A stretch of 64,000 bases of DNA. Source: Ascidia mentula (lineage: Eukaryota > Chordata > Ascidiacea > Phlebobranchia > Ascidiidae). Position 1 is the stretch's first letter. Every line of letters starts with the position of its first letter. Position numbers and translations under genes: made by a program. Shown in pieces: positions 2,218-60,928 of this stretch. The notes below the pieces were generated by a model. The model made no database searches. It was not told where the DNA came from and was given only the letters and a program-made list of their open reading frames with translations. The DNA lies in assembly GCA_947561715.1 (NCBI GenBank), contig OX387201.1, positions 18,304,001-18,368,000 of the forward strand, written 5' to 3'.

Positions 2218-5200
2218 TCAATCTTGTGTTTGCAGTTTAGTCCCAGTTTTCTTTCCAGTGAGAACACTTGCGACTCCGTATTCGTCATTTCCACCATCTT
2301 CCTCGTTTTCCACCTCTTTTATCGGAACAAAATTGTTGTATCCATACTTTTTCATGAGTAGATAAACAACGACAACTACAGCAGCCAGGAAACATTGCAC
2401 GGTGCCATAGAACAGAGAATAAACAATTATTGAAACCACAACATTGGGTGGAGAATTTCTGAAAAATAGCGTGAAAGATCGGTCAGTGTGAAGATTTCTG
2501 AGCATGTTTTCCTCTCTGTAACCTATTTAATACATGACCCGATAATCTTAAAGGTCCCGAAAGTTGTGAAACTTAGTTATTTAAAAAAGCAACTTCCAAG
2601 GTGTACTCCAATCGTAAAAGTTAGTTTAACTTCGAATTTACTAAATTCCTTTATTTCGTTGTAAAACCAAGTCAATAATTCACTCACTTGTATGATAGAA
2701 AAATTACATTGAAGGCAACAGGAGCGTTTTGGAACATGATTTCTATGCCGATAGTACGTCGTTCCGGTTGAGAGAACCCGAGAAATGGTATTCGCGTAGC
2801 GGCGTAACCGATTGCGAACGCACAGAACAAGAACAAGAATGCGGACTGTGGAAAGGAACCTGATGTTAAATAGTAAAATACATGACAGTGCCATTGTTTT
2901 ACAATCTGCATGTTAGTGGTGTTTGACTTAACGGAGCGGCTTTCGGTTAATGTCTTACCCCGGCAAGTTTGGCGTCTGTTTGATTCAACATTCCTTCGAT
3001 AATTATCAAGAACAACAACCCCGCCATCATTATGGAACCAGTTATTGAAAACACCTAAAGATCAAAGGATGCTTTTTACATTTTCACATTTTTTTTGTAA
3101 ACATTGCCTCCGTTTCGATTAATCTCATGTGTGCCGCTGGTGACCATCTATGTCTGCCTGGCTAACCAGAGAAAAACGGTTTTTCTATTGGGCAACAATG
3201 CAGTCACTCTTTTTTATGATTTAAAAATGTATACCGCTTGTCAAACATTATTAAGCACAAAATAATTCATGGTGCAAATAGTTCATAAAACAGCATTGCA
3301 AGAAGATTTCCGAAAGTCGTGTCTGGTGGCAAAGATCCACCAATGGATTAAATTCTTAGGGCCAGGTGAGAGTTTGGTTATACAAACCACTTCCATTGCT
3401 ACCAACCTTTGTTAGTATTCGTGCTTTGGATGGGAGAAAGTGCTGGACAGCAATTCCTATTAAAATGGGGACAACCATTCCAGCCAAACCGATTCCTAAA
3501 AGTAAGGTTAAAATTTTCTAAGAACGCCACTGGATTTGATTTGTTCTGGCGTAGGAGTTTCACTCTGTTTTCACAAATCATTTTGACATAAATTCAAGTT
3601 TTCTCAGAAACTTGGATTTTATCAAAATCACGGTGCGATTCTGAAACTCACACCGTGACTGTGAAAGTTTAGAAAAATACAACACATTGTAAGGGATCGT
3701 CGCAATTTAGTCATCATTGCAGGCATGGCAAAGTGATTCAATGTGTGGATGGAACGGTCTCAGGTCTTAAGAGAAATCATTTTGTAAATTTTGTATCCTC
3801 CAATTGTATCCAAGTACCTTGCGACAATTGTTTATGACTTTGTTTCGAGTCAGTTTTCGAATGCACTCAGGTTGCATGCTATATATAGGATATTTTTTCC
3901 AGAAATTTTACCTAGCCACTTGTAGGGCACACGGAGGGTTTCATCCAGTTGCAAAATCGCACTGAATGCGTAAAGCCACATCGGCATAAATCCGAGCGCC
4001 AGAAGAGTGGAGACGGTAGTCATCACTATGCTGAAATATAGCTTTCAAATTAATAGGCACATACGAATAGTTCCATAAGGACTTTAGTTCTTCATTAGCT
4101 TATCAGATAGGATATACGGTGAGCTACTTGAGTGGAAGCAGACAAATAGCTTTCGCGGTGATTCTATATAGCGTTATTTTGTGGACGTTTTTCCAACAGG
4201 ACAGTATCGTGTATTTGCTAGGTGGTTATTGATTTGCGGTTAGCTTATATACCTGAGGTCCATATTTCCGTCCAACCAATAAGTAGCGATATTGCTGTAT
4301 GTTCCACCTGGTGAAGCCGACTGGATTATCATCCCAAGAGCTGTCGTTAAATTGAACCTCATCACTTGGCTAATGCAAAACCCTAACACTGTAAATACAA
4401 TTGATCGGCATTTATGCACATTATTGGTTAACCACATGATACCAACAATGTGCCCAACTAATTTTCAATCTTAAAATAAACATAACCGTGTTTAGAAAAA
4501 GTTTTGACAAAAAAGACGAATTTGTACCCTCCAAGGCGGACATAAGCAAACTGCGGTCTCAGGGCTAAACCTGGCCTGCCAGGGGTTGACATAAACTTGT
4601 GTCACTTTGTGTCACGAAATTTATTCATCCAACAGTTTTGATGTAGTCGTTGTGCAGATTTTTTAAAATAATCGATTATTCCTTAATTATCTCACGGGGG
4701 AGTAGAAGAAGTTGCAGCGAAATTCCAGTGAAAAATTTCTTTGGAGTTTTGATAAAATTAAGGATTCTGGTGGTGCTTGTCGAACAGCCCAACCCGAACA
4801 TGACGGTAACAGTGGCTGAGCTGAAAAACATGTAAACTCAAACATATTGGTATGTGTGTTGCATAAAACTAGCAAATAAAACTAAAAAAAGGAACTTTCG
4901 ACTGCAAGAGATGCCAGGTTATTTAACTATGTCAATGCACGTTGCAGAGTCCAAAAGTTTGTTGCCCATGGTTGGAAATCACGAAAAAAATTGGTTTCCC
5001 CGAAAAAGTTTTCTTCATTATTCCAGACTTTACAAACTGTGGCCACAGAAAGCCAAGAGTTCAAACGTGTCTGCTATCGAATACATTAAAATATTAGAAC
5101 CTTCTCAAATACTGCAACAAACAAAATAGACAGGCATCAAAAAGCTGCATCAAAAGGCCCCATTTAACACTGCTGCTTATACGATTATGGACAACTTTTA

Positions 5201-6161
5201 AACCGCCTTAATGGCCATTATGGCGAAAGAAATGGCAACCCAACTATCCGCGATGTATCTATCAACAGTTTACATTTTCAAGTTTACCAACCCCAGCATA
5301 AGGTGATTGATGTTTTATGCAAATTAAGAAGTTTGTTGCTTTGCGGGCACTTGAAATGCTTTTTCTGTGTCGCATTGTTACATCTAAAAAGACACCAATA
5401 CATATAAACGTACAAGGAAAGTTTTTGTGTGACATCCAATATCCATTGTCCGCCTTCTGTCGCCGAATTGTTCGCAGAAGATTCAAAACCTAAACACGTG
5501 AAGGCAGCTTGAATACACATTTGGACTTTTTGGGTGAATTGAATATATATTTTACAATCACAAAACAAATTATCCACGTCACCTTTTCTTCTAGTTTTTA
5601 GGTGGTTATAAGTAGTGATGTTTCTGTTCCAAATCATACGGCCCGGCTGAATCCGGATAAAAATCGGTCAAATCCAGCCGGATAATTTAAGTTCGCCAAT
5701 GTGCTAACCGCAATTTAAGCGTGCGTTACACTAGTGTGACAGAAATGTGTAATACGTGGACGTGTATGCTCCCCCAACATATATATCAACTAAATGAAGC
5801 ACATTTTCATGACAAAACTGATGGATTGATGTTGCTTTATTAGGTCACAAATGAGGATGACCTTGTTTATCTAGTAAGAAAAGGAGAATCGGTGTCGTCT
5901 TTCGCAGCAGGGTCCCGAAAACCAGTGAAATTTGTGTGTGTTTTTGTGTCGTAAATTTCAAAGCAATTATCCGGCCGCGTCCCTTTACCCAGATCCGGCA
6001 TGGCACATCACTAGTTACAAGTGCCCAGAATTTCCAATAATATGTACATTATGTATGGAAACTTCCACAAATATACTTATTCAAAGTTTTATCACTATAT
6101 AAAGAAAACGTGTAGACATACCTGAAACCGCAAAGGAGGAGTTTGTTGCAGACATTTTCAT
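2218..6161 (-). CDS. Gene 1: SLC10-family sodium/bile-acid-type cotransporter, intact
   Basis: Predicted sodium-coupled importer of amphipathic organic anions in the plasma membrane. Nine coding exons, E1 to E9: 6122-6161, 5414-5489, 4696-4820, 4253-4388, 3912-4030, 3407-3495, 2959-3054, 2688-2845, 2218-2458. All have GT/AG ends and consistent phases, giving 359 aa (human NTCP has 349). The start is the ATG opening MKMSATNSS, just downstream of an in-frame stop. The N-terminus has two glycosylation sequons (NSS, NNS). Residues matching the NTCP sodium sites are Q75, S112-N113 after SPGGTY, S126 and T130 (SIVMTT), E262 and Q266 (EIMFQ). The Ser126 codon is split by intron 4. E7 and E9 are the most divergent of subtype A, which fits its place at the array edge. 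Family call is firm; substrate unknown. Confidence 0.88.
5613..6013. mobile_element. hAT-type MITE in intron 1 of gene 1
   Basis: A 401-bp element with 9-bp terminal inverted repeats (TAGTGATGT ... ACATCACTA). It is bounded by an 8-bp target duplication, GTTATAAG / GTTACAAG, with one mismatch. Repeated CCGGAT and inverted CCGGATAATT motifs lie inside both ends. An 8-bp duplication with ends beginning TAGTG is typical of the hAT superfamily. It has no transposase. The same site is occupied in genes 1-6, so insertion preceded duplication. Confidence 0.75.
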
Positions 6162-6238
6162 TCAAATAGCCTGGAAACGTTTATTTTCCGGGTTGAAATC
6201 TGTCAGCTAAATTTTTTTGAATTTAAATAAGACACTGG

Positions 6239-6294
6239 CTTTGCTTCGTAAAACGAAATCTATTAATCTGTATATTTCGCTTTGAAAAACAAAG
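6239..6294. repeat. Imperfect palindrome upstream of gene 1 exon 1
   Basis: Two arms of about 21 bp, CTTTGCTTCGTAAAACGAAA and a near complement, are separated by about 14 bp. It lies roughly 80 bp upstream of the gene 1 start codon. It recurs at the same place in genes 2, 3 and 4 and is degraded in genes 5 and 6. It may be promoter architecture, a 5'-UTR hairpin or a remnant of a tiny transposon. Confidence 0.5.
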
Positions 6295-6299
6295 TCAGT

Positions 6300-8562: not shown

Positions 8563-11500
8563 TTACACCTTTGTTCCATTTTTCTTCCCTGCAGTTAGAG
8601 CACTTGTGACGTCACCTCCCTCATGTCGATCATCAGCCTTGCTCTCATCATTTTGCACAGGAACAAAGTAATTGAATCCAAACTTCTTCATGAGAAGATA
8701 AACCGTGACAACTACAACTGACACGACCAATTGCATGGAACCGTAGAAAAAGGAATATGCAACAATAGATGGCACAACACTTGGAGTATCTCTGCAAAGA
8801 GATCGTTGACAAACAGTTATAACTAGAAGAAAACCTGCTCTGGATTCGTGGCCAGGGTATCCTGGTTTCAAATCCAGGTGAGTCAAATAAATAAATATAA
8901 ATAAATGAAAGCCGACAATGGGTTTAACGTAGAATGCAAGTGGTCGTGCCGAGATGACAAGTGCTCTCAAACAAGTTTCTTCATTCTTCACACTGATATC
9001 GCATTTTAAAAGGACATATACAGAGGCAAGTAGAAAAAAGTTACCGGGAACGTTTCAAATTACACGACAAATAAACCCGATGCGTTCTTATATACTAAGG
9101 TGAGATTTACTAAATAAGAATCAATTTTCAAAGATTAAAGAACTTGTTTACCAAAACGCCATGTCGGCAATAATTATTCACCGAAACAAAAAATATTTCA
9201 CCGATTTACTTTCATTCCTGTTTGTAGGTGACATTCATATATCTTTGTTGCTGTCTGCGTATTTGCAAACGAAATGCTTTTATTCAGTACAAAAATCAAA
9301 CAAATGATTGTAAACGTCAACAGTAATTAATTTGCTTTAGTGCTATCCAAACCAAGTCAATGTATTACTTACTTGTATGAGAGAAAAATTACGTTCAAAG
9401 CAACCGGGGCGCTTTGGAACATGATTTCTATGCCGACAGTGCGTCGTTCCGGTTGAGAGAACCCGAGAAATGGTAATCGCGTAACGGCGTAACCGATTGC
9501 GAATGCACAGAACAAAAAAAAGAATGCGGACTGTGGATGGACGAGATGGTTTCAATTGTTTAAACATTTGTGGCCAACAGTAAAGTTTTCGGTTAATGAC
9601 TTACCCCGGCAAGTTTGGCGTCTGTTTGGTTGAACAGTCCCCCGATCACCGATAAAATCATTATAACCACCACCACACTGGAACCGATTATCGAAAGCAC
9701 CTGAAATAAAATCACAATTACAGAAATGCACATGGCCGGCAAACAGCGTCGCCGAGTTTAACTAAGAGTTTTTACTGAGCGTAGCTTGGTAATATCTGAT
9801 GGTATGGCCGGATAAACCAGAATCAGTCACTATTACCGTGTGGTTTTCAATTATTATCGGTTTTAAGAACTTCAATGTATCCGCAAGCACCATTACACAA
9901 TGCAGTAAGTTAAAGGCGACGAACAATAGTAACAAAACTAAGTAAATCATAAACCTGCCTTGCTGGGAGTGCTATACGACTATAGGTAAATTGTCGCGTT
10001 TAAAACGGCATATATACTTTGGTTGGTTGTGTAATTTAAACAAATAATATCGGCATACCCACATTAGCAATAAGTTGTGTAAAATTTTACTACATGAAAT
10101 CTACCTAACAAGCAGCGAAACATGTATTCTAAAACCAAAAGCGTGGACACAAAGTTGTTCTAGTAACATTTAAAATTCATACCCACCTTAGTTATGAAAC
10201 GTGATTTTGATGGTACGAAGTGCTGGACAGCAATTCCTATTAGAATGGGGATAATCATTCCCGCCAAACCGATTCCTGTACGCAAAGAGAGCAGAATTGT
10301 GTTCCCGTATTGTGAGTTCGTTATGTTGTAAGAGTAACGCATGTAGACGTGAGACAGAATAAAATCCGGTGCTGTTTGTAAGTTAGCTCCCGAAATATAT
10401 AGAACTTTTATTTAGCCACCTGCAATTGTATCCAAGTAACTTGCGACAATTCTTTATGACTTTGTTTCGAGTCAGTTTTTGACTGCACTCAGGTTGCATG
10501 CTATATATAGGATATTTTTTCCAGAACTTTTACCTATCGCTTTGTAGGGCACACGCAAGGTTTCATCCAATTGCAAAATCGCACTGAATGCGTAAAGCCA
10601 CATCGGCATAAATCCGAGCGCCAGAAGAGTGGAGACGGTAGTCATCACTATGCTGAAATACAATGTTCATATTATTTAACGCATACGTGTCAGCGGTTGA
10701 GGTCAAGCATATCTTTAGGGCGGATAATGCAGTTAGCTTATATACCTGAGGTCCATATCTCCGTCCAACCAATAAGTAGCAATATTGCTGTATGTTCCAC
10801 CTGGTGATACCGACTGGATTATCATCCCAAGAGCTGTCGGTAAATTGAACCTCATCACTTGGCTAATGCCAAACCCCAACACTGGAAATACAATTGATCG
10901 GCATTTATGCACATTATTGGTTAACCACATGATACCAACAATATGCCCAACTAATTTTCGATCTTAACATAAACATAACCGTCGTTTCTCGCAAATTTTT
11001 TCTAAAAAGACAAATTTATAACCTCCACAAGCAAACAGCGGTCACAGGGCTAAACGTGGTGTGCCAGGGGTTGGCATAAACTTGTGTCACTTTTTGTCAC
11101 GAAATTTATTCATCCAACAGTTTTGATGTGATCGTTGAGCCGAATTTTTTTAAATAGTCGATTGTTCCTTAATTATCTCACGGGGTAAGAGGAGAAGTTG
11201 CAGCGAAATTCCAGTGAAAAATTTCTTTGGACTTTTGATAAAATTAACGATTCTTGTGGTACTTGTCGAACATCCCAACCCGAACATCACAACAACAGCG
11301 GCTGTGCTGAAAAAAGATGTAAACTCTTACATTTTGGAATGTGCGTTGCATAAAACTAGCACAAAAAAACGAAAAAAACAGAATTTTCGACTGCGAGAGA
11401 TTCCAGGTTATTTAACTATGTCAATGCATGTTGCAGAGTCCAAAAGTTTGTTGCCCATGGTTGGAAATCACGCAATAAACTTTTGCCCCCAAAAAGTTGT

Positions 11501-12953
11501 TTTCATTCTTCCAGACGTCACAAACTGTGGCCACAGAAAGCCAAGAGCTCAAACGTGTCTGCTATCAACTACAGCAAAATATTAGGACGTTCTCCAGTAC
11601 TGCAACGAACCATGGCTTAACGAAATGGACAGGCAGCAAAAAGCTGCATAAAAAAGGCCCCATTTAACACTGCTGCTTATACGATTAAGAACAACTTTTA
11701 AACCGCCTTAATGGCCATTGTGGCGAAAGAAAAGGCAACCCAACTAGCCGCCATGTATCTATCAACAGTTTACATTTCTAGTTTACCAACAACAGCATAA
11801 GGTGATTGATGTTTCATGCAAATTAAGTAGTTTGTTGCTTTCCATACACCTAAAATGCTTTTTCTGTGTCGCATTGTTACATCTAAAAAGACACCAATAC
11901 ATATAAACGTACAAGGTGAGTTTTTGTGTGACGTCCAATATCCAATCTCCGCCTTCTGTCGCCGATTTGTTCATGGAAGAACCAAAACCTAAAAACGTGA
12001 AGGCAGCTTAAATACACATTTGGACTTTTTGGGTGAATTGGCAATGCATTTCACTATCACAAAAACGTCAATTTTTTTCCTATTTTTTAGGTGTAGTTAT
12101 GGTTATAAGTAGTGATGTTTCTGTTCCAAATCATACGGCCCGGACGAATCCTGATAGTAATCGGTCAAATCCAGCTGGATAATTTGGATTCGACAATTTG
12201 CTAACCGCAATTTAAGCGTGCGTTGCACCAGGGTGACACGTGTATGCTTTGTTATGGTTTGCTTACGGTGAGTTCAACAAATAAGAGTTTATCGTAAAAG
12301 TGTGTTAAAACAACTTATTTGTGATGTGGTTTAGCCTCAGTATGAAATATCTTCATTGCGGAAACCTTTCCAAACCCTGCACATACTGACCTTTTAAATA
12401 CCTTTTGAATACAGCGCATTTTCATGACGAAACTGATGCATTAAAGTTGCTCAATTAGGTCACAAATTAGAATGAACTTTTTATCCCATACGAAAAGGAG
12501 AATCGGTGTCGTTTTCCGCAGCAGGGTCCCGAAAACGAGTGAAATTTGTGTGTGTTTTCGTGTCGTAGATTTCTAAGCAATTATCCGGTAAATTTACGTG
12601 AATTATCCGACCGCGTCCCTGTACCCAGATACCGCACAGCACATCACCAGTTACAAGTGCCCAGAATTTTCCACGAATATGTACGTTGCGTATTGAAATT
12701 TCCATGAATATACATTTATAAAGAATTTTGTCGCTACGTTGTGGCGACTGAACTGCAGTGTTCGCCTGTGCATTGAAGCGTGCTCTTGCCCTTTTCTCGT
12801 GTCGCGGTTACCACCATATACTCGTGTTTTTTGTGTTGCTCGCTCTGTGACTCTGCACGACTCTCACAATAAAGCATCAACCGCTTTAATGTATTATAAA
12901 CAAGTAGACATACCTGAAACCGCAAAGGAGGAGTTTGGTACAGACATTTCCAT
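8563..12953 (-). CDS. Gene 2: SLC10-family cotransporter, intact
   Basis: Exons E1 to E9: 12914-12953, 11913-11988, 11182-11306, 10746-10881, 10534-10652, 10187-10275, 9605-9700, 9373-9530, 8563-8791. All have GT/AG ends and consistent phases, giving 355 aa. The start (MEMSVPNSS) is preceded directly by an in-frame TGA. The sodium-site residues described for gene 1 are all present: Q before LLLLP, SN after SPGGTY, SIVMTT, EIMFQ. The C-terminal tail is hydrophilic and acidic, ending NGTKV. An 8-T run on the minus strand in E8 encodes Phe codons and is in frame here, unlike gene 4. Everything upstream (5') of E7 is nearly identical to gene 4. Intron 1 holds the 540-bp form of the hAT MITE. Confidence 0.88.
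8831..8907 (+). repeat. tRNA-related SINE fragment in intron 8 of gene 2
   Basis: The sequence GGATTCGTGGCCAGGG is followed by a pol III B-box-like GGTTTCAAATCC and an AAAT-rich tail. No A box or full cloverleaf can be folded, so this is a SINE 3' piece and not a tRNA gene. It recurs in intron 8 of genes 3, 4, 5, 7 and 9 but not of gene 6. Confidence 0.5.
12110..12649. mobile_element. hAT-type MITE in intron 1 of gene 2
   Basis: A 540-bp version at the same target site: GTTATAAG before TAGTGATGT, GTTACAAG after the right end, which is ACATCACCA with one TIR mismatch. It carries about 140 bp of interior sequence absent from the copies in genes 1 and 3. A 74-codon minus-strand open stretch crosses its right edge and is not a gene. 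Confidence 0.75.
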
Positions 12954-16044: not shown

Positions 16045-19000
16045 TTACACCTTTCTTCCATTTTTCTTCCCAGTTAGAGCACTTGTGACGTCACTTCCCT
16101 CATGTCGATCATCATCCTTGCTCTCATCATTTTGCGCAGGAACAAAGTAATTGAATCCAAACTTCTTCATGGACAGATAAACCATGACAACTACAATTGA
16201 CACGACCAATTGCATGGAACCGTAGAACAAGGAATATGCAACTATAGAGTGCACAACACTTGGAGTATCTCTGCAAAGAGATCGTTGACAAACAGTTATA
16301 TCTAGAAGAAAACCTGATCTGGATTCGTGGCCAGGGTGTCCTGGGTTCAAATCCCGGTGAGTCAAACAATATAAATAAAACCCGACAATAGATTTAACGT
16401 AGTACGCAAGTTGTCGTGCCGGGATGACAAGTGCTGTCAAACAAGTTTCATTCTTCGCACTGATATCGCATTTAAAAGGACATATTCAGAGGCAAGCAGT
16501 AAAGAGTTACCGGGAACGTTTTAATTTACACGACAAATAAACCCGATGTGTTGTCGTGTACTAAGGTGAGATTTCTTAATTAAGAATCAATTTTCAAAGA
16601 CTAAGTTTCTCATGACTATCTGTGACGCAACAACCGCTAATTGTTTACAAGAACGCCATCAAGACAATAATTATTATTACGGAACAGCGGAATGTTCCGG
16701 TTTACTTTTACTGCGGCTTGGAGGTGACATTCATATATCTTTGTTGCTGTCTGCGTATTTGCAAACGAAATGCTTTTGTTCAGGACAAAAATTAAACAAG
16801 TAGTCCCATGATTATGAAGGTTAATAGTAATAACTTTTCCTTAGTGCTATCCAAACCGAGTCAATGGATTACTTACTTGTATGACAGAAAAATTACGTTC
16901 AAAGCAACAGGGCAGCTTTGGAACATGATTTCTATGCCGACAGTGCGTCGTTCCGGTTGAGAGAACCCGAGAAATGGTATCCGCGTAGCGGCGTAACCGA
17001 TTGCGAACGCACAGAACAAGAACAAGAATGCAGACTGTGGAATGGAAATGAAAGTTTGATTTGTTTAAACATTTGTGGCCAACAGTAAAGTTTTCGGATA
17101 TTGACTTACCCCGGCAAGTTTGGCGTCTGTTTCGTCGAACAGTCCCCCGATCATAGAAAAAATCTTCAAAACCACCACCATAATGGAACCGATTATCGAA
17201 AGCACCTAAAAATGAAAACCCAATTACAGAAATGTATATGGCCGGCAAACGGCGCCACCGAGTTTAACTAAGAGTTTATTCTGAGCGTAGCTTGTTAATA
17301 TCTATTGGTATGGCCGGATCAACCAGAATCAGTCACTATTACCGTGTGGTTTTCAATTATTATCGGTTTTAAGAACTTAAATGTATTCGCAAGCAAACAA
17401 GCACCATTACACAATGCAGTAAGTTAAAGGCGATGAACAATAGTAACAAAACAAAGTAAATCATAAACCTGCCCTGCTGGTAGACAAGTGTTTTATGATC
17501 ATAGGTAAATTGTCGCGTTTAAAACGGCATACGTACTGTGGTTGGTTGTGTAATTTGTACAAATAATATCGGCATACCCACCTTAGTTATCATACGTGAT
17601 TTTGATGGTACAAAGTGCTGGACAGCAATTCCTATTAGAATGGGGATAATCATTCCCACCAAACCGATTCCTGTACGTAGAGAGAGCAGAATTATATTCC
17701 CGTATTGTGAGTTCGTTATGTTGTAAGAGTAACGCATGCAGACGTGAGACAGATCGAAATCCGATGCTATTTGGGGGTTAGCTCCTGAAATCAAGTTATG
17801 TTTAGAACTTTTACCTAGCGCTTTGTAGGGCACACGGAGGGTTTCGTCCAGTTGTAAAATCGCACTGAATGCGTAAAGCCACATCGGGATAAATCCGAGC
17901 GCCAGAAGAGTGGAGACGGTGGTCATCACTATGCTGAAATACAATGTTCATATTATTTAACGCATACGTGTCAGCGACTGAAGTCTAGCATATCTCTAGG
18001 GCGGATAATATTACTTTTTTATACCTGAGGTCCATATCTCCGTCCAACCAATAAGTAGCGATATTGCTGTATGTTCCACCTGGTGAAGCAGACTGGATTA
18101 TCATCCCAAGAGCTGTCGGTAAATTGAACCTCATCACTTGGCTAATGCAAAACCCCAACACTGGGAACACAATTGATCGGCATTTATGCACATTATTGGT
18201 TAACCACATGATACCAAAAATGTGCCAAAAAACTAATTTTCGATCTTAACATAAACGTAACCGTCGTTTAGAAAAATTTTCGACAAAAAAGACGAATTTA
18301 TACCCTCAACAAGCAAACAGCGGTCACAGGGCTAAACCTGGTCTGCCAGAGGTAGGCATAAACTTGTGTCAATTTGTGTCACAAAATTTATTCATCCAAC
18401 AGTTTTGATGTAGTCGTTGTGCAGATTTTTTTAAATAATCGATTCTTCCTTAATTATCTCACGGGGAAGTAGGAGGAGTTGCAGCGAAATTCCAGTGAAA
18501 AATTTCTTTGGAGTTTTGATGAAATTAAGGATTCTGGAGGTTTTTGTCGAATATCCCAACCCGAACATGACGGTAACAGTGGCTGTGCTGAAAAAGATGT
18601 AAACTCAAACATATTGGTATGTGTGTTGCATAAAGCTAGCAAATAAAACTAAAAAAACGGAACTTTTGACTGCAAGAGCTGCTAGGTTATTTAGCTATGT
18701 TGCAGAGTCCAAAAGTTTGTTGCCCATGGTTGGAAATCACGAAAAAAATTGTTTTCCCCAAAAAAGTTTTCTTCATTGTTCCAGACTTCACAAACTGTGG
18801 CCACATAAAGCCAAGAGCTCAAACGTGTCTGCTATCGAATACACCAAAATATTAGAACCTTCTCAAATACTACAACAAACAAAATAGAAAGGCATCAAAA
18901 AGCTGCATCAAAAGGCCCCATTTAACACTGCTAATTAGACGATCAAGGACAACTTTTAAACCACCTTAATGGCCATTATGGCGAAAAAAAAGGCAACCCA

Positions 19001-19227
19001 ACTATCCGCGATATATCTATCAACAGTTTACATTTACAAGTTTACCCACCCCAGCTTAAGGTGATTGATGTTTCATACAAATTGTTACATCTAAAGAGAC
19101 ACCAATACATATAAACTTACAAGGAGAGTTTTTGTGTGACGTCCAGTATCCATTGTCCGCCTTCTGTCGTCGAATTGTTTGCAGAAGATTCAAAATCTAA
19201 ACACGTGAAGGCAGCTTGAATACACAT
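16045..19227 (-). CDS. Gene 3: SLC10-family cotransporter lacking canonical exon 1
   Basis: Exons E2 to E9 are intact with good splice sites: 19121-19196, 18463-18587, 18025-18160, 17815-17933, 17582-17670, 17110-17205, 16877-17034, 16045-16270. The region that should hold E1 is deleted and replaced by an ATGGATGT-type microsatellite near 19.92-19.96 kb. An in-frame ATG at 19225-19227 (reads MCIQAAFTCL) runs without a stop straight into E2. It could give a 351-aa protein if transcription starts there. E3 reads GLGY where the other genes read GLGC, and E7 has a Lys inside its hydrophobic stretch. Sodium-site residues are kept. It may be a gene with a changed start or a young pseudogene. Confidence 0.7.
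16311..16380 (+). repeat. tRNA-related SINE fragment in intron 8 of gene 3
   Basis: Contains a perfect B box GGTTCAAATCC with a well-paired CTGGG/CCCGG T arm, then GGTGAGTC and an AT-rich tail. Same insertion as in gene 2. Confidence 0.5.
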
Positions 19228-29600: not shown

Positions 29601-29711
29601 AAAGAGTTTTTTCTTGCATTGAAGAAGTGTTTTAAACAGAGTATAACGCAGTGACGAACAACAAACATTACCAAAGTAAATCCACGTGTAAATTATACAC
29701 TCTTATTGAGT
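26622..29711. other. Spacer between genes 4 and 5
   Basis: Duplicate of the gene 2-3 spacer. It carries the palindrome (26698-26753), the truncated coding-like fragment (about 28234-28343) and the tRNA-like B-box fragment (28631-28700). Nothing else is supported. Confidence 0.45.
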
Positions 29712-29978
29712 TTACACCTTTGTTCCATTTTTCTTCCCAGTTAGAGCACTTGTGACGTCACTTCCCTCATGTCGATCATCATCCTTGCTCTTCTCATTTT
29801 GCACAGGAACAAAGTAATTGAATCCAAACTTCTTCATGGACAGATAAACCATGACAACTACAATTGACACGACCAGTTGCATGGAACCGTAGAACAAGGA
29901 ATATGCAACTATAGAGTGCACAACACTTGGAGTATCTCTGCAAAGAGATCGTTGACAAACAGTTATATCTAGAAGAAA

Positions 29979-30049
29979 ACCTGATCTGGATTCGTGGCCA
30001 GGGTATCCTGGGTTCAAATCCCGGTGAGTCAAACAATATAAATAAAACC
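29979..30049 (+). repeat. tRNA-related SINE fragment in intron 8 of gene 5
   Basis: Same insertion as in gene 3, with a perfect B box GGTTCAAATCC. Confidence 0.5.
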
Positions 30050-43171: not shown

Positions 43172-46041
43172 TTACACATTTGTTCCATTTTTCTTCCCAG
43201 TTAGAGCACTTGTGACGTCACCTCCCTCATGTCGATCATCATCCTTGCTCTTCTCATTTTGCACAGGAACAAAATAGTTGAATCCAAACTTCTTCATGAG
43301 AAGATAAACCGTGACAACTACAAATGACACGACCAGTTGCATGGAACCGTAGAAAAAGGAATATGCAACAATAGATGGTACAACACTTGGAGTATCTCTG
43401 CAAAGAGATCGTTGAGAAACGGTTATAACTAGAAGAAAACTTGCCCTAGATTCGTGGCCAGGATATCTTGGGTTGAAATCCCGGTGAGGTAAACAACATA
43501 AAAAATAAAAAAAACGAAATATCATACATTGCATTTAAAGGACATATTTAAAGGCAAGCAGTAAAGAGTTACCGGGAACGTTTTAAATTACACGACAAAT
43601 AAACCCGATGTATTGTCGTGTACTAAGGTGAGATTTCCTAAATTAGAATCAATTTTTAAAGATTAAGTTTCTCATAACTATCTGTTACGGAACAACCGCT
43701 AATTGTTTACAAGAACCCCATCACTATAATAAATTTTATTAGGGAACAGCGGAATGTTCCGGTTTACTTTTGCTGCGGCTTGGAGGTGACAAACTTAATC
43801 ACTTGATTGCTGTCTGCGTATTTGCAAACGAAATGCTTTTGTTCAGTACAAAAATTAAACAAGTAGTCCCATGATTATGAAGGTTAATAGTAATAACTTT
43901 TCCTTAGTGCTATCCAAACCGAGTTAATGTATTACTTACTTGTATGACAGCAAAATTACGTTCAATGCAACAGGAGCGCTTTGGAACATGATTTCTATGC
44001 CGACTGTGCGTCGTTCCGGTTGAGAGAACCCGAGAAATGGTATCCTCGTAGCGGCGTAACCGATTGCGAACGCACAGAACAAGAACAAGAATGCAGACTG
44101 TGGAATGGACGAGATGGTTTCAATTGTTTAAACATTTGTGGCCAACAGAGAAGTTTTCGGTTAATAAATTACCCCGGCAAGTTTGGCGTTTGTTTCGTCG
44201 AACAGTCCTTCGATCATAGATAAAGTCAACGTAACCACCACCATAATGGAACCGATTATCGAAAGCACCTATAAAGTAAACCGTCGCGTTTAAAACGGCA
44301 TAGGTACTTTAGTTGGTTGTGTAATTTATACAAATATTATCGGCATGCCCACCTTAGTTATCATACGTGATTTTGATGGTACGAAGTGCTGGACAGCAAT
44401 TCCTATTAGAATGGGGATAATCATTCCCACCAAACCGATTCCTGTGCGTAGATAGAGCAGAATTATACTCCTGTATTGTAAGTTCGTTATGTTGTAAGAA
44501 TAACGCATGCATATGTGTAACAGATCGAAATACCGATGCTATTTGGGGGTTAGCTCCTGAAACCAAGTTATATTTACAACTTTTACCTAGCTCTTTGTAG
44601 GGCACACGGAGGGCTTCGTCCAGTTGCATAATCGCACTGAATGCGTAAAGCCACATTGGCATAAATCCGAGCGCCAGAAGAGTGGAGACGGCAGTCATCA
44701 CTATGCTGAAATACAACGTCCATATTATTTTATGCATACGCGTCAGCGGTTGAGGTCAAGCATATCTTTATGGTGGATAATATTACTTTTTTATACCTGA
44801 GGTCCATATCTCCGTCCAACCAATAAGTAGCGATATTGCTGTATGATCCACCTGGTGAAGCCGACTGGATGATCATCCCAAGAGTCTTCGGTAAAGTAAA
44901 CCTCATCACTTGGCTAATGCCAAACCCCAACACTGGAAAAAACATGTATGTACGTGTGTCTTTGCAGCTCTAACTTAACGTAACAGTTCTTTTAATACCA
45001 GTATTTCCATTAAAAATGGTTTTGTACCTAAAGTGCTGCGAATAGAAATTATTTAGAAAGCGCACATAAAGATCGTATTCAAATATACCTTCAAATTGTC
45101 TGTTTGATGTGGTCGGTAGAAATATGTTTAAATTTTCAAAAACTTGTTTTTTAGGCCACTCACGGGGAAGCAACAGGAGTTGCAGCGCAATCCCAGTCAG
45201 AAATTTCTTTGGTGTTTTAATGAAATTGATGATTCTCTTTGTGCTTGTCGAACAGCCCAACCCGAGCATTATAATAAACACAGATATGCTGAAAAACATT
45301 ATTACAGGGTGTAGCAATATCATGATAGTTTACGGTTTCAACAACTGCACGTCAATCGCGTAGGGCTTTTCACCTGCATACGCAACGCAGTTATGATATA
45401 ATTTGTTGAATTCAATATTGTGTTGCTCTGTAGACGTAGAGGTGCTTAGCTTTTTGAGTGAAAGCTAACTAATTTCAGGCATTTGAATGTTTCAATATTT
45501 AACAATTTTACATTTTGAAGGATAAATTTGCATTGATGCAAACGTTTAATTTGATTCATTCAAACTAGGATCTTTATTGAAAGATTTAAACAACAGTAAA
45601 GTACATATAAAAGCTATGGAGCCAATAATTTTTTTTATAGTGAGCTGCAGATAGGGCCACTGTTTCGATCTAACAGGTCTCATCAGTGCAGCTGTAGTGT
45701 AACTTACAAGGATCTTGTCAGTTAAAATGCCGGCAAGAATTCCACTTTGTGGTGACTATAGTAATAACATGTTAAAACGAAATTCTTTGGTCGGTATTAA
45801 TCTAGGACCAGTCACTTCAAACCTCAATAAATTTATTCTTACAAAGAAAGTTTCTGGGAGACGTCTATTATCCACCCTCCACCTTCCACGGACGAAATGT
45901 TTTTGGGAGCAAGACTCACATTTTGCGCAGAAAAGCTGATACCTGAACAAGGGTTTAAAAAATCGTTAAGGCTGTTTTTTTGTTACCTATCCGAAAGTGT
46001 AATGAGAACGAAAAACGAAAAACATGTCTACAAGCCCCCAT
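43172..46041 (-). CDS. Gene 7: SLC10-family cotransporter, subtype A-prime, intact
   Basis: Exons E1 to E9: 45987-46041, 45843-45942, 45164-45288, 44797-44932, 44587-44705, 44353-44441, 44173-44268, 43940-44097, 43172-43397. Phases agree throughout, giving 367 aa. The N-terminus is new: E1 starts MGACRHVFRFSF, and E2 has sequons NVS and NIS and ends WIIDVSQKLS, matching WILDVTQKLS of genes 1-6 at the same phase. Intron 1 is only 44 nt and intron 6 only 84 nt. SPGGSYSN, SIVMTT and EIMFQ are kept. No hAT MITE is present. E1 is less sure than the others because it rests only on phase, a GT/AG pair and the copy in gene 9. Confidence 0.82.
43441..43510 (+). repeat. tRNA-related SINE fragment in intron 8 of gene 7
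   Basis: Degraded B box GGTTGAAATCC with the same GATTCGTGGCCAGG head. Confidence 0.4.
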
Positions 46042-47165: not shown

Positions 47166-49867
47166 CTACTCCTTTTCATCGGTCATGAGAACATTCGTTG
47201 CCAATTCTTCGTCGTCTTTATTCTCTGCCTCGATCTCGTCGTTGGGAACAAAATATGTGAAACCGAATCTTTTCATGAGAAGGTAAGACGTGATCGCGAT
47301 CACTGAGGACATCAACTGCATGGAGGCGTAGAAGAAAGGCAGACTGACCATGTATGCTACCACTGGAGCCGGGTTGTCACTGTGAATGTAGATATGGACT
47401 TACTGCATAGTACATAGAAAAAAATACTTTGTGACCATAATTTTCAGTAAAACATACGTATACACGGCAGTAACTTACTGGTAAGATATGAGAATGACGT
47501 TGAAAGCCACAGGGGCGCTCTGGAACATGATTTCTATAGCTACAGTGCGCCGTTCCGACTGAGTGAAATTGAGAAAGGGGATTCGGGTCGTTGCGTATCC
47601 CGTCCCGAAGGCGCAAACAATCAGCAAGGCAACAGACTAGAAAATGTAAATCCAGAAGTTTAAAAGCCGCAATTTTAAACTCGAACATGTGTCCGCGATC
47701 CAGTTTATTATTATATTATTAAAATATTCTCATACTCGGGAAAAAGGTACATGTGTGTACCTATCAGTAAAATGCTTTTCTTCTTACCAGCATAGGCCTT
47801 GCCCTCGCAACGTCGACGTACAGTCCAAGAGATATTGAAACTCCCATGATTCCAAGAACGAAAAACGAACCCAAGATGGTGAAGATCTTTGTACAGGAAA
47901 TTTATCGTTAGGGGAGGGATATGTGGCCAACGACAGCAGGAATTTTAAAACATTTCTGATACGTTCGTGTTGTGGTTTTACTGAATCGACCTTAGTGCTG
48001 TCACTTGTCAGGATATTAACGCATTTAACTTGGTTCAATAAACTCAGAAGCTCTTTACATTCCAGTCGTTATCCAACGGACATACATTAAGCAAACGCGT
48101 CAGATGCCAGGCAAAGTCAGTAACAAACCGTTAACTTGTTAAAACGTGCATAGAGGAATACCTTGGTTAGAAGGCGGGATTTGGATGGAAAGAAATGCTG
48201 TACTCCCAACCCCAACAGCACCGGAACGACCATTGACGCCAAACCAATTCCTGCACACAAGCGTATTTTTCGGTGTCAAACAATCTCAAATAATCGCAGT
48301 AAATTTTGAAATTTGCTGCAATTGGGTAGGGCTACTGTTGGTGTGTTACTATATACGGGAAAGTATAATCAATTTCGCAACAGTTTACAATAAAATCTGC
48401 AAACTGATTTAAGTGTTGGGATTTTCAATTACCTAAAGGGTAAATCCATAAGCGAATTTCAAAACTACCCAAAACAATGTAAATATATAACAGCAGCAAC
48501 TCATAGCAAATACAAAACTTTTACCGAGCCAGCCGAAGGGCACTTTTAAGGTTTCCTCCAATTGCAGAACCGATGTGAAAATAAGAAGCCACATCGGCAT
48601 GAACCCCATTGCCAGGAGCGTGGAGACGGTGGTCATGATTATGTTGCAACGCACAAAAAAGTTGGTTAAGGCAAATTCTCCCTTCAATCTTATGGCGGAG
48701 ATAACTTTATTTAAGGCCGTGAACTGATAAGAAGCATGGTACGACGAACTGTTGTGGTTATTCTTTGCCGCGGGCAGATCGTATTTATAATTACACGACC
48801 AACGAAATTCATAATTTTGTGGTGACGTTTTGTTTGTATGTGGCAACATAGACATTTCATGGGTTAGTACGATGTTTGCGGCAAAGATATAAGAATTAAC
48901 TCCAGGCATTTATATCTCCGGGCTGCGGTATATTTACCGTAGAACTCTCTTTAAAATCTTTGTTTACTGTGAAGTTTTTGGCCTTGCTTGGTGACATAAC
49001 AAAAGGTTCGGCCAATGTCAATGCCTTTTGCGGCGATTTAGTAGGGTCGGCTTAAGCTGCTTCACAACGACAATATTTTAAGTTTCATGACAATGTTACA
49101 GAAATATTGAGAGATAGAAAACTGTCACCTGAGGTCCATATCCCCGTCCAACCAATACGTCACAATGTTACTGTACGTTCCACCGGGCGATGACGACAGG
49201 AGAAGAAGTCCCAGAGTTTTTGGCATGTCCAAACTTAAAATGCGACTTATGGCGAAACCGAATACTGTGGAAACAGAATGATAATATCAAGTGGTAGAAT
49301 GGAGTCTTCTCTATTTGGTGAACGTTTGATTAACTTACGTGGGAGAAGTATTAGCTGCAAAGAGACACCGGTTAGAAAGTGTTTGGGTTTCTTGATAAAG
49401 TTCACTATCCGATTTATGCTCGCCGAACAACCCAGACCGAACATAATCGTAAACACGGCGATACTGAAAATGTACACAAAGAAAACTTTCGTTTCACATC
49501 GTACCGAACTAATTTACCAAAGTTAAGACAGAATGGTTAACATCTAACTAATGCCGAAAATGTATTACTACAAGATTAAAGATTTCGAGAATGAACAGGC
49601 TGCCCCATACCGCTGTAAACATCGACATGTATATTCTCAAAATTGTGCAAGAATCCGTTACTGGTGGTGAAAGATATAATGCAACTAAAATGTATTTAAC
49701 CACGACCTTGAATAGAAGTATTACAGTCTACGGTTTATTATTTCTAATTCCTCTCCTACTCAATTCAAATTTACTCACAAAGCCAACTTTTGTGCTATCT
49801 GCAAAGCCAGATTTAGGTCTACGTTATGAGCTGTATCGCTGGTCGTGTTGGTCGTCGTTCCCATCAT
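47166..49867 (-). CDS. Gene 8: SLC10-family cotransporter, subtype B, damaged splice acceptor
   Basis: Coding exons 49779-49867 (exon runs to 49881), 49339-49463, 49129-49264, 48525-48643, 48162-48250, 47788-47886, 47479-47636, 47166-47379, giving about 342 aa. The start is an in-frame ATG (MMGTTTNTTS) about 100 nt below a TATA-like box; NTT is a sequon. SPGGTYSN, SIIMTT and EIMFQ are kept, as is Q before LILLP. The acceptor of the VMTT-type exon reads TTGCAA where gene 10 reads TTGCAG, so its AG is lost. Unless another acceptor is used, that exon, which carries one sodium-site Ser/Thr, would be skipped or the intron kept. It may be a pseudogene, a null allele or a base error. Confidence 0.78.
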
Positions 49868-49967
49868 AGTCGTGACATTATCTGAAACAAGTTATTGTAT
49901 TTATTCTAAAGTATTTGGAATTTAGATATTTGTAGTGCGGCCGTTTAAGTAAAGCTGCAACCTTGTG

Positions 49968-52888: not shown

Positions 52889-52936
52889 ATGTTGAATTAC
52901 ACAACAGCGATGACAGAAGCAGCACAACTTGAATAG
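52889..52936 (+). pseudogene. Deleted remnant of the 7TM receptor gene
   Basis: The first 14 codons of the receptor (MLNYTTAMTEAAQL) are joined to sequence that lies beyond its stop codon in the intact copy, giving a 15-codon frame. The intact copy has TCAACTTA at 40929-40936 and 41952-41959, exactly at the lost segment's edges. This fits a deletion of about 1,023 bp between short direct repeats. Confidence 0.85.
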
Positions 52937-53827: not shown

Positions 53828-54115
53828 ACACGTAAACAAAATATCCCTCTGTAATATTAGGTTTTCAAGGGATTGTTTGGTTTGATATTATGAATATTTA
53901 TGAACAATATACTTTATAAGGCAAGCATTCAGATGGCACATATGATTCGCTAAGCAAATGAAAAAAGTTTTTTTTAGGTTTTCAGCTCACGCAGCAGCTG
54001 CGAATGCGAAAGAGAATTTGCATCGAAGAAGTGTTTTGAAAAGAGCATAACGCAGTGACGAACAACAAACATTACCAAAGTAAATCCACGTGTAAATTAT
54101 ATACTCTTATTGAGT

Positions 54116-56987
54116 TTACACCTTTGTTCCATTTTTCTTCCCAGTTAGAGCACTTGTGACGTCACCTCCCTCATGTCGATCATCATCCTTGCTCTTCTCA
54201 TTTTGCACAGGAACAAAATAGTTGAATCCATACTTCTTCATAAGAAGGTAAACCGTGACAACTACAAATGACACGACCAGTTGCATGGAACCGTAGAAAA
54301 AGGAATATGCAACAATAGATGGCACAACACTTGGAGTATCTCTGCAAAGAGATCGTTGAGAAACGGTTATAACTAGAAGAAAACTTGACCTAGATTCGTG
54401 GCCAGGATATCATGGGTTGAAATCCCGGTGAGGTAAACAACATACAAAATAAAAAAAACGAAATATCATACATCGCATTTAAAGGACATATTTAAAGGCA
54501 AGCAGTAAAGAGTTACCGGGAACGTTTTAAATTACACGACAAATAAACCCGATGTATTGTCGTGTACTAAGGTGAGATTTCCTAAATTAGAATCAATTTT
54601 CAAAGATTAAGTTTCTCATAACTATCTGTTACGGAACAACCGCTAATTGTTTACAAGAACCCCATCACTATAATAAATTTTATTAGGGAACAGCGGAATG
54701 TTCCGGTTTACTTTTGCTGCTGCTTGGAGGTGACAAACTTAATCACTTGATTGCTGTCTGCGTATTTGCAAACGAAATGCTTTTGTTCAGTACAAAAATT
54801 AAACAAGTAGTCCCATGATTATGAAGGTTAATAGTAATAACTTCTTTTCCTTAGTGCTATCCAAACCGAGTTAATGTATTACTTACTTGTATGACAGCAA
54901 AATTACGTTCAAAGCAACAGGGCAGCTTTGGAACATGATTTCTATGCCGACTGTGCGTCGTTCCGGTTGAGAGAACCCTAGAAATGGTATCCTCGTAGCG
55001 GCGTAACCGATTGCGAACGCACAGAACATGAACAAGAATGCAGACTGTGGAATGGACGAGATGGTTTCAATTGTTTAAACATTTGTGGCCAACAGAGAAG
55101 TTTTCGGTTCATAAATTACCCCGGCAAGTTTGGCGTTTGTTTCGTCGAACAGTCCTTCGATCATAGATAAAGTCAACGTAACCACCACCATAATGGAACC
55201 GATTATCGAAAGCACCTATAAAGTAAATTGTCGCGTTTAAAACGGCATAGGTACTTTAGTTGGTTGTGTAATTTATACAAATATTATCGGCATGCCCACC
55301 TTAGTTATCATACGTGATTTTGATGGTACAAAGTGCTGGACAGCAATTCCTATTAGAATGGGGATAATCATTCCCACCAAACCGATTCCTGTGCGTAGAG
55401 AGAGCAGAATTATACTCCTGTATTGTAAGTTCGTTATGTTGTAAGAATAACGCATGCATATGTGTAACAGATCGAAATACCGATGCTATTTGGGGGTTAG
55501 CTCCTGAAACCAAGTTATATTTAGAACTTTTACCTAGCTCTTTGTAGGGCACACGGAGGGTTTCGTCCAGTTGCATAATCGCACTGAATGCGTAAAGCCA
55601 CATTGGCATAAATCCGAGCGCCAGAAGAGTGGAGACGGCAGTCATCACTATGCTGAAATACAACGTCCATATTATTTTATGCATACGCGTCAGCGGTTGA
55701 GGTCAAGCATATCTTTATGGTGGATAATATTACTTTTTTATACCTGAGGTCCATATCTCCGTCCAACCAATAAGTAGCGATATTGCTGTATGATCCACCT
55801 GGTGAAGCCGACTGGATGATCATCCCAAGAGTCTTTGGTAAAGTAAACCTCATCACTTGGCTAATGCCAAACCCCAACACTGGAAAACATGTATGTACGT
55901 TTGTCTTTGCAGCTCTAACTTAACGTAACAGTTCTTTTAATACCAGTATTTCCATTAAAAATGGTTTTGTACCTAAAGTGCTGCGAATAGAAATTATTCA
56001 GAAAGCGCACATAAAGATCGTATTCAAATATACCTTCAAATTTTCTGTTTGATGTGGTCGGTAGAAATATGTTTACATTTTTAAAAACTTGTTTTTAGGC
56101 CACTCACGGGGAAGCAACAGGAGTTGCAGCGCAATCCCAGTCAGAAATTTCTTTGGTGTTTTAATGAAATTGATGATTCTCTTTGTGCTTGTCGAACAGC
56201 CCAACCCAAGCATTATAATAAACACAGATATGCTGAAAAACATTATTACAGGGTGTAGCAATATCATGATAGTTTACGGTTTCAACAACTGCACGTCAAT
56301 CGCGTAGGGCTTTTCACCTGCATACGCAACGCAGTTATGATATAATTTGTTGAATTCAATATTGTGTTGCTCTGTAGACGTAGAGGTGCTTAGCTTTTTG
56401 AGTGAAAGCTAACTAATTTCAGGCATTTGAATGTTTCAATATTTAACAAATTTTACATTTTGAAGGATAAATTTGCATTGATGCAAACGTTTAATTTGAT
56501 TCATTCAAACTAGGATCTTTATTGGAAGATTTAAACAACAGTAAAGTACATATAAAAGCAATGGAGCCAATAATTTTTTTTACAGTGAGCTGCAGATAGG
56601 GCCACTGTTTCGATCTAACAGGTCTCATCAGTGCAGCTGTAGTGTAACTTACAACGATCTTGTCAGTTAAAATGCGGCAAGAATTCCACTTTGTGGTGAC
56701 TATAGTAATAACATGTTAAAACGATATTCTTTGGTCGTTATTAATCTTGGAGCAATCACTTTAAACCTCAACAAATTTATTCTTACAAAGAAAGTTTCTG
56801 GGAGACGTCTATTATCCACCCTCCACCTTCCGCGGACGAAATGTTTTTGGGAGCAAGACTCACATTTTGCGCAGAAAAGCTGATACCTGAACAAGGGTTT
56901 AAAAATCGTTAAGGCTATTTTTTTGTTACCTGTCCGAAAGTATAATGAATAGAACGAAAAACGAATAACATGTCTACAAGCCCCCAT
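54116..56987 (-). CDS. Gene 9: SLC10-family cotransporter, subtype A-prime, intact
   Basis: Exons E1 to E9: 56930-56987, 56787-56886, 56108-56232, 55744-55879, 55534-55652, 55300-55388, 55120-55215, 54887-55044, 54116-54341. Phases agree, giving 368 aa. E1 starts MGACRHVIRFSFYS. It is one codon longer than E1 of gene 7, and intron 1 is again about 43 nt. E2 carries NVS and NIS sequons and WIIDVSQKLS. SPGGSYSN, SIVMTT and EIMFQ are kept. Differences from gene 7 are scattered and mostly conservative in the membrane exons but denser in E1, which suggests that the N-terminus is under weaker or different constraint. Confidence 0.83.
54383..54455 (+). repeat. tRNA-related SINE fragment in intron 8 of gene 9
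   Basis: Counterpart of the copy in gene 7, with B box GGTTGAAATCC. Confidence 0.4.
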
Positions 56988-58132: not shown

Positions 58133-60825
58133 CTACTCCTTTTCATCGGTCATGAGAACATTCGTTGCCAATTCTTCGTCGTCTTTATTCTCTGCCTCGA
58201 TCTCGTCGTTGGGAACAAAATATGTGAAGCCGAATCTTTTCATGAGAAGGTAAGACGTGATCGCGATCACTGAGGACATCAACTGCATGGAGGCGTAGAA
58301 GAAAGGCAGACTGACCATGTATGCTACCACTGGAGCCGGGCTGTCACTGTGAATGTAGATATGGACTTACTGCATAGTACAAAATACTTTGTGACCATAA
58401 TTCTCTGTAAAACATTCGTATACACGGCAGTAACTTACTGGTAAGATATGAGAATGACGTTGAAAGCCACAGGGGCGCTTTGGAACATGATTTCTATAGC
58501 TACAGTGCGCCGTTCTGATTGAGTGAAATTGAGAAAGGGGATTCGGGTCGTTGCGTATCCCGTCCCGAAGGCGCAAACAACCAGCAAGGCAACAGACTAG
58601 AAAATGTAAATCCAGAAGTTTAAAAGCCGCAATTTTAAACTCGAACATGTGTCCGCGATCCAGTTTATTATTATATTATTAAAATGTTCTCATACTCGGG
58701 AAAAAAGGTACATGTGTGTATCGGCTATCAGTAAAATGCTTTTCTTCTTACCAGCATAGGCCTTGCCCTCGCAACCTCGACGTACAGTCCAAGAGATATT
58801 GAAACTCCCATGATTCCAAGAACGAAAAACGAACCCAAGATGGTGAAGATCTTTGTAGAGGAATTTTATCGTCAGGGGAGGGATATGTGGCCAACGACAG
58901 CAGGTATATTAAAACATTTCTGATTGGTTCGTGTTGTGGTTTTACTCGTCGACCTTAGTGCTGTCACTTGTCAGGATATTAACGCATTTAACTTGGTTCA
59001 ACAAACTCAGAACATTCCAGTCGTTATCCAACGGACATACATTAAGCAAACGCGTCAGATGCCTGGCAACGTCAGTAACGAACCGTTAACTTGTTAAAAC
59101 GTGCATAGAGGAATACCTTGGTTAGAAGGCGGGATTTGGATGGAAAGAAATGCTGTACCCCCAACCCCAACAGCACCGGAACGACCATTGACGCCAAACC
59201 AATTCCTGCACACAAGCGAATTTTTCGGTGTCAAACAATCTCAAATAATCGCAGTAAATTTTGAAATTTGCTGCAATTAGGTAGGGCTACTGTTGGTGTG
59301 TTACTATATACGGGAAAGTATAATCAAACGTCATTTCGCAACAGTTTACAATAAAATCTGCAAATTGAGTTAAGTGTTGGGATTATCAATTACCTAAAGG
59401 GTAAATCCATAAGCGAATTTCAAATCTACCCAAAACAATGCAAATATGTAACAGCAGCAACTCATAGCAAATACAAAACTTTTACCGAGCCAGCCGAAGG
59501 GCACTTTTAAGGTTTCCTCCAATTGCAGAACCGATGTGAAAATAAGAAGCCACATCGGCATGAACCCCATTGCCAGGAGCGTGGAGACGGTGGTCATGAT
59601 TATGCTGCAACGCACAAAAAAGTTGATTAAGGCAAATTCTCCCTTCAATCTTATGGCGGAGATAACTTTATTTAAGGCCGTGAACAGATAAGAAGTTTGG
59701 TACGACGAACTGTTGTGGTTATTCTTTGCCGCGGGCAGATCGTATTTATAATTACACGACCAACGAAATTCATAATTTTGTGGTGACGTTTTGTTTGTAT
59801 GTGGCAACATAGACATTTCATGGGTTAGTGTGATGTTTGCGGCAAAGATACAAGAATTAACTCCAGGTATTTATATCTAAGGGCTGCGGTATATTTACGG
59901 TAGTACTCTCTTTCAAATCTTTGTTTACTGTGAAGTTTTTGGCCTTGCTTGGTGACATAACAAAAGGTTCGGCCAATGTCAATGCCTTTTGCGGCGATTT
60001 ACGAGGGTCGGCTTAAGCTGCTTCACAACAGCAATATGTTAAGTTTCCTGACAATGTTACAGAAATATTGAGAGATAGAAAACTGTCACCTGAGGTCCAT
60101 ATCCCCGTCCAACCAATACGTCACAATGTTACTGTACGTTCCACCGGGCGATGACGACAGGAGAAGAAGTCCCAGAGTTTTTGGCATGTCCAAATTTAAA
60201 ATGCGACTTATTGCGAAACCGAATACTGTGGAAACAGAGTGATAATATCAAGTGGTAGAATGGAGTCTTCTCTATTTGGTGAACGTTTGATTAACTTACG
60301 TGGGAGAAGTATCAGCTGCAAAGAGACACCGGTTAGAAAGTGTTTGGGTTTCTTGATAAAGTTCACTATCCGTTTTATGCTCGCCGAACAACCCAGACCG
60401 AACATAATCGTAAACACGGCGATACTGAAAATGTGCATAAAGATAACTCTCGTTTCACATCGTACCGAACTAATATACCGGAGTTAAGACAGAATGGTTA
60501 ACATCTAACTAATGCCGAAAATGTATTACTACAAGATTAAAGATTTCGAGAATGAACAGGCTGCCCCATACCGCTGTAAACATCGACATGTATATTCTCA
60601 AAATTGTGCAAGAATCCTTTATTGGTGGTGAAAGATATAATGCAACTAAAATGTATTCAACCACGACCTTGAATAGAAGTATTACAGTTGACGGTTTATT
60701 ATTTCTAATTCCTCTCCCACTCAATTCCAATTTACTCACAAAGCCAACTTTTGTGCTATCTGCAAAGCCAGATTTAGGTCTACGTTATGTGCTGCATCGC
60801 TGGTCGTGTTGGTCGTCGTTCCCAT
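58133..60825 (-). CDS. Gene 10: SLC10-family cotransporter, subtype B, intact
   Basis: Coding exons 60740-60825 (exon runs to 60842), 60300-60424, 60090-60225, 59486-59604, 59117-59205, 58752-58850, 58439-58596, 58133-58346. All ends are GT/AG, including the TTGCAG acceptor lost in gene 8, giving 341 aa. The first in-frame ATG has A at -3 and G at +4. The N-terminus is Thr/Asn-rich with a sequon, and the tail is acidic, ending MTDEKE. SPGGTYSN, SIIMTT, EIMFQ and Q before LILLP are present. Exon 7 of this subtype has 33 codons rather than 32 and a different last segment (VARARPML). An extra upstream coding exon, as in subtype A, cannot be excluded. Confidence 0.85.
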
Positions 60826-60928
60826 GATAGTCGTGACATTATCTGAAACAAGTTATTATATTTGTTCTAAAGTATTTGGAATTTAGATATTTGTAGTGCG
60901 GCCGTTTAAGTAAAGCTGCAACCTTGTG

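Follow-up and report, generated by a model that had tools for sequence, protein, structure and literature searches.

What do the members of a large tandem family of SLC10-type transporters carry in an ascidian? The question is raised by a stretch of 64,000 nucleotides of the Ascidia mentula genome (contig OX387201.1; C69:18304001-18368000), which we call the window and within which the coordinates below are counted. SLC10 is known mostly from the bile-salt and steroid-sulfate carriers of vertebrates. The reading that we favor, and to which we give a probability of about 0.6, is that the locus is a young tandem array evolving by birth and death, whose members would be Na+-coupled carriers of the SLC10 fold with a diversifying cargo other than bile salts.

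We modeled exons on the minus strand of the window and of 20 kb to either side, and searched the complete assembly (195.8 Mb, 79 contigs) for the SBF family, obtaining 41 exon-level matches. The minus strand carries ten SLC10-type loci between 2218 and 60842, from the end of gene 1 to the first exon found of gene 10, precisely where the original prediction had placed a ten-member array on a single strand. The array runs on beyond both edges of the window with genes 0 and 11, giving 12 loci in total. Genome-wide there are at least 23 SLC10 loci, comprising the array, a cluster of four on C73 and seven single loci. Eight coding exons were found per full locus, which we label E4-E11, and their phases agree across the copies. 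The proposal that all ten window loci share this exon plan holds for seven, in each of which the eight exons all have open frames and are bordered by AG/GT. It fails for the three damaged ones, where gene 5 lacks E5-E8, gene 4 carries a frameshift and gene 8 has an AA acceptor. E9 is open in all 12 copies, including gene 5. Among the repeat families in the array, the 20 listed, from a total of at least 60, have lengths of 157-300 bases and three to eight copies at 60-100% identity; with such lengths, copy numbers and identities, chance likeness is not an issue.

Two subtypes can be distinguished. The A-type genes (0, 1, 2, 3, 6, 7, 9 and 11) are 71-98% identical to each other, with pairwise synonymous divergence (dS) of 0.04-0.48 and a ratio of nonsynonymous to synonymous divergence (dN/dS) of 0.24-0.58. 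Genes 8 and 10 make up the B-type, which shares 52-56% identity with the A-type at saturated dS. These comparisons were made without genes 4 and 5.

Do the proteins belong to SLC10, and could they use sodium? Domain models were scanned with two array proteins, those of genes 2 and 10. Both match the Pfam model SBF (PF01758) above its curated cut-off of 24.3 (E 5.4e-35, 121.3 bits, and E 7.2e-34, 117.6 bits, respectively), so that the profile search confirms membership of the family. They miss the cut-off of 326 of the NCBIfam model TIGR00841 ('bass', bile acid:sodium symporter), scoring 192 and 182 bits, despite E values of 1.3e-56 and 1.4e-53. An early, hand-joined core of gene 2 matches the NTCP structure 7pqg over query residues 1-242 (E 2e-24), and alignment to NTCP predicts a nine-helix fold of core and panel domains. 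The sodium-site residues Q68, S105, N106, S119, T123, E257 and Q261 (NTCP numbering, used throughout) are all kept in ten of ten full-length models. These are genes 0, 1, 2, 3 and 6-11; gene 8, with its lost acceptor, is counted, and the broken genes 4 and 5 are not. The A-type consensus agrees with NTCP at all six mapped Na+ ligands. The predicted conservation of the sodium sites thus stands for every full-length model and fails for gene 5, which without E5-E8 lacks five of the seven residues. The numbers originally given for gene 1 are our own positions for that gene plus a constant 14.

The place of the array among its relatives was examined in a main tree of 20 rows, from which one intronless, very long-branched locus was excluded. 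Human NTCP was the sole vertebrate member; SOAT (SLC10A6) and ASBT (SLC10A2), of the same family according to the literature, were left out. The nine intact array members form one clade (support 100/99), joined next by L008 (98/94) and then by L009 (99/98), which lie on the same chromosome at C69:16.68 Mb and C69:22.26 Mb. A 21-row tree that includes the intronless locus groups the array with L008 and L009 likewise. Together with the A-type dS values, this bears out the suggestion of a local, recent expansion. L008 and L009 also resemble the array at the E5/E6 and E7/E8 places, where their matched segments are likewise interrupted, and L008, like the array, lacks N262 and Q264. They differ from it in being single loci at separate places, and L009 keeps both residues.

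Human NTCP is placed with L012 (C73:5870k; C73:5866001-5876000), with support that is not strong (91/76), and with L011 and L013. In the approximately unbiased (AU) test, a grouping of the array with NTCP was rejected (p-AU 8.8e-8), as was one of the array, L008 and L009 with NTCP (p-AU 7e-4). It should be borne in mind that the tested groups were chosen once a first tree had been seen, that the loci outside the array are joined segments and that several branches are long. Judged by these trees, the array is its own branch of the SLC10 genes of this genome, apart from the NTCP branch. On sequence grounds, L012 is the NTCP-like gene. It shares with the array its family and all six mapped Na+ ligands; unlike the array it groups with NTCP, and two matched segments each run through an array intron place.

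What, then, of the path taken by the cargo? In NTCP, transmembrane helix (TM) 6 forms the panel domain together with TM1 and TM5 (PMC9242856, PMC9242859), and extra density in the crevice between TM6 and TM9 is probably substrate (PMC9242856). N103, N262, Q264 and Q293 are conserved polar residues of the cavity (PMC9242856); bile-acid uptake falls to 22% in N262A and to below 50% in Q264A (PMC12810916). In the array, N103 is replaced by T, S or I and Q264 by P in all ten models, N262 by S in nine, and S267 by L or F in nine, with F in genes 1, 8 and 10. Q293 is kept in all ten. In contrast, L012 keeps all five of these residues.

A broader comparison can be drawn from the 54 NTCP residues within 4.5 Å of a bound viral peptide, 34 of which face the tunnel (PMC12810916). 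Assignment of the listed residues to the tunnel was our own step, made by way of the per-helix counts of that paper, and the aligned part contains 24 tunnel residues. The A-type consensus is identical to NTCP at 2 of these 24, as against 73 of 234 positions overall, and single array genes agree at 1-4 of them; the corresponding figure for L012 is 14 of 22. NTCP (SLC10A1; PDB 7wsi, 7pqg) and the tandem array are alike in core homology, both Na+ sites and Q293; the A-type consensus is unlike NTCP at 22 of the 24 tunnel residues.

The tunnel also varies between copies. Over the eight A-type paralogs, variable sites number 13 of 24 in the tunnel and 59 of 210 elsewhere, with a mean pairwise difference of 0.272 versus 0.121 (P 0.0017). 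The same was true without E9 (11 of 22 versus 40 of 181 sites; 0.235 versus 0.089, P 0.0012). Outer-loop contacts, taken as a control, were not enriched for A-type variation (4 of 16, P 0.80).

Constraint was compared exon by exon. A-type dN/dS is 0.26-0.36 for E5-E8, E10 and E11 and 1.04 for E9 (E11 was covered in part, and E4 was left out). Codon likelihood using a separate tree for each exon gave omega = 0.26-0.36 for E5-E8 and E10 (0.31 jointly) and 1.69 for E9, the exon that aligns to TM6 of NTCP. The E9 value is separable from 0.3 (twice the log-likelihood difference, 2dlnL, 24.4) and not from 1 (2dlnL 1.84). We considered positive selection on the TM6 exon and do not claim it; omega does not differ significantly from 1, and for this exon alone site model M2a improves on M1a by 2dlnL 3.36. 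Over six exons M2a is preferred to M1a (2dlnL 18.6), the signal coming from one codon, aligned to V263. Without E9 the gain is 19.9 and comes from the codons aligned to V263 and G158, both of which are on the tunnel list. At the V263-aligned codon the residue is A or C, with V in gene 11 alone, and it is not the same in genes 7 and 9, although these are near-copies.

If the favored reading is right, Na+ would drive uptake of an amphipathic organic solute by each intact copy, the solute passing, by analogy with NTCP, through a pore between core and panel domains. The range of cargo would differ copy by copy and would exclude taurine- or glycine-conjugated bile salts. Since the Na+ sites are unchanged and the tunnel is both unlike that of NTCP and variable by copy, bile salts are probably not the cargo, and the copies perhaps do not all carry the same one. 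More tentatively, one may imagine a diversifying repertoire of cargoes, in which Na+ coupling is frozen and the tunnel differs between copies, with gene conversion reshuffling it. The changing parts would be TM6, the X-motif stretch of TM8, the mouth of TM5 and TM9, and the situation could be likened to the binding pockets encoded by detoxification or chemosensory gene arrays.

Several observations weigh against a diversifying tunnel. The omega of TM6 is not significantly above 1, so that relaxed constraint fits equally well. The array profile covered TM6 in just one of ten other loci, the intronless L014 (matches above 8 bits), and TM6 seems to be weakly conserved in general. The M2a signal amounts to a single codon over six exons, or two without the TM6 exon, and gene conversion may have spread it, given that the V263 codon differs between near-copies. 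Taken gene by gene, tunnel identity to NTCP lies below background (p < 0.05) in four of nine members. The tunnel test tallies sites rather than events on the tree, its residue set consists of viral-peptide contacts and not bile-acid contacts, and the register of TM6 is unsure.

An alternative is that recurrent unequal crossing-over simply makes and breaks copies, the intact ones being largely redundant and the variation in the tunnel and TM6 reflecting relaxed constraint. Damage to three of ten window copies, two large recent duplications (98.6% and 96.1% identical), pairwise A-type dN/dS values of 0.24-0.58 and a TM6 omega not above 1 are all consistent with such noise in copy number. We nevertheless consider it rather unlikely, as five of the six exons tested are held at omega 0.26-0.36, the Na+ ligands are invariant and the variation falls in the tunnel and not in the outer loops.

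The original prediction also raised the idea that the array handles sulfated steroids, such as are used as sperm attractant by Ciona, a relative of A. mentula in the same order. We find this improbable. In Ciona the sperm-activating and -attracting factor (SAAF) is a cholestane disulfate (PMC9265791), and a SAAF has been described from Ascidia sydneiensis (cited in PMC6226504). In NTCP, replacing S267 alters which substrates are chosen (PMC8954283); S267F reportedly lowers bile-acid transport and nearly preserves that of estrone sulfate, although one in vitro study found normal taurocholate uptake (PMC8773476). The L or F at position 267 in nine of ten models would therefore leave room for steroid sulfates in the array, but indicates no preference for them. 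Against the idea, the array lies off the NTCP branch, the joint grouping being rejected, and L012 lies on it, with a tunnel and cavity much closer to NTCP than those of any single array gene. If any SLC10 gene here handles SAAF-type compounds, L012 would be the first candidate, and it is a better ascidian candidate than the array for bile-alcohol or SAAF-like sulfates.

That haplotype copies laid end to end have inflated the array is very improbable: the block identities of 98.6% and 96.1% are within the range that allelic divergence can reach in ascidians, and the extract of the genome paper gives no heterozygosity figure (PMC11109543), but the HiFi/Hi-C assembly was made with Hifiasm and purge_dups at a quality value (QV) of 64.9 (PMC11109543), the 104 kb examined contain no N, a deletion and the duplication borders distinguish copies, and, the near-copy pairs 2/4, 3/5, 7/9 and 8/10 aside, the modeled proteins are at most 93% identical and thus too divergent for alleles.

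Should there be such a diversifying repertoire of cargoes, an SLC10 subclade of that kind, outside the bile-salt group, would mean that the family is used in a new way. An array with intact Na+ sites and a replaced, varying tunnel would be a natural set of variants for finding the residues that determine the choice of cargo. Among the best-ranked titles of the openly licensed literature, we found no report of SLC10 tandem arrays in tunicates.

The individual loci and the two duplications are collected in Table 1.

Table 1. Array genes and duplicated segments, in window coordinates
Feature	Position	Strand	Remarks
Gene 0 (A-type)	-4985 to -1978	-	just outside window
Gene 1 (A-type)	2218-5489	-	E11-E4; intact over the 8 exons found
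Gene 2 (A-type)	8563-11988	-	intact over the 8 exons found; in-frame stop codon just upstream of E4
Gene 3 (A-type)	16045-19196	-	intact over the 8 exons found; Lys of TM6 exon aligned to NTCP S206
Gene 4 (A-type)	22333-25656	-	near-copy of gene 2; +1 frameshift at T-run in E10
Gene 5	29712-31349	-	remnant with E11, E10, E9 and E4 only; pseudogene
Gene 6 (A-type)	34927-37712	-	intact over the 8 exons found
Gene 7 (A-type)	43172-45942	-	intact over the 8 exons found
Gene 8 (B-type)	47166-49881	-	frames open; E7 acceptor AA
Gene 9 (A-type)	54116-56886	-	tandem copy of gene 7; intact over the 8 exons found
Gene 10 (B-type)	58133-60842	-	intact over the 8 exons found; TM6 exon of 33 codons
Gene 11 (A-type)	65182-67976	-	just outside window
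Duplicated segment	9181-17506		most of gene 2 and 3' part of gene 3; partner 22848-31175 (genes 4, 5), 98.6% over 8.3 kb
Tandem duplication, period ~10.95 kb	41953-54408		genes 7, 8; partner 52925-65474 (genes 9, 10), 96.1% identical

The three damaged copies differ in kind. The T-run in E10 of gene 4 has one T more than that of gene 2, placing the frameshift upstream of E257 and Q261; gene 4 may be a pseudogene, or the extra base an error of base calling. Gene 5 is a pseudogene; its E5-E8 could not be traced by tblastn at E <= 1 between 29600 and 34850. Gene 8 has AA before E7 where gene 10 has AG, and from this change is probably inactive or mis-spliced.

The two bases at the start of E4 belong to a split codon, and a first exon is accordingly expected upstream. 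We searched upstream of E4 in genes 0-7, 9 and 11 for exons that start with ATG and end with one leftover base, and in all 12 loci for minimal ATG-N-GT exons; no first coding exon or start codon could be identified in any copy. Candidates for gene 2 were ranked by likeness to genes 1, 3 and 6; for genes 7 and 9 all candidates were considered, and for gene 11 those that have a strong donor. Some candidate sites are partly shared, one by genes 7 and 9 and another by genes 1, 3 and 6, and ATGTGTATT stands 31 bases upstream of E4 in genes 0-6. As none is common to both subtypes, none was chosen. Scanning the upstream sequence for synonymous and nonsynonymous change yielded no more than weak candidates.

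Elsewhere in the genome, the second cluster is that of L005-L007 (C73:966001-994000), whose four SLC10 genes are divergent in sequence from the array and retain N262 and Q264. L014 (C70:18299001-18306000) holds an intronless, very divergent SBF-family frame of 463 amino acids (frame 2617-4005), in which the residue aligned by eye to the Na2 ligand Q261 is K. It is a candidate retrogene or orphan SLC10.

Five translations from the flanks were scanned for domains, three without a match. The other two, L003 at 70851-71612 and L001 at about -17132 to -16623, both on the minus strand, gave matches to a protein-kinase domain (PF07714, E 2.5e-8) and a BACK domain (PF07707, E 2.5e-4). L001 also contains, upstream of the array at about -11993 to -11354, a long array of 9-base units that is open in several frames on both strands. 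Within the window, a repeat at 33300-33790 and 39599-40082 includes a minus-strand stretch that resembles tRNA-Thr (33412-33487 and 39711-39786). Across the genome the repeat is matched by at least 121 pieces, which in places follow one another head to tail every 369 bases or so, and it is probably a tRNA-derived short interspersed nuclear element (SINE) or a satellite.

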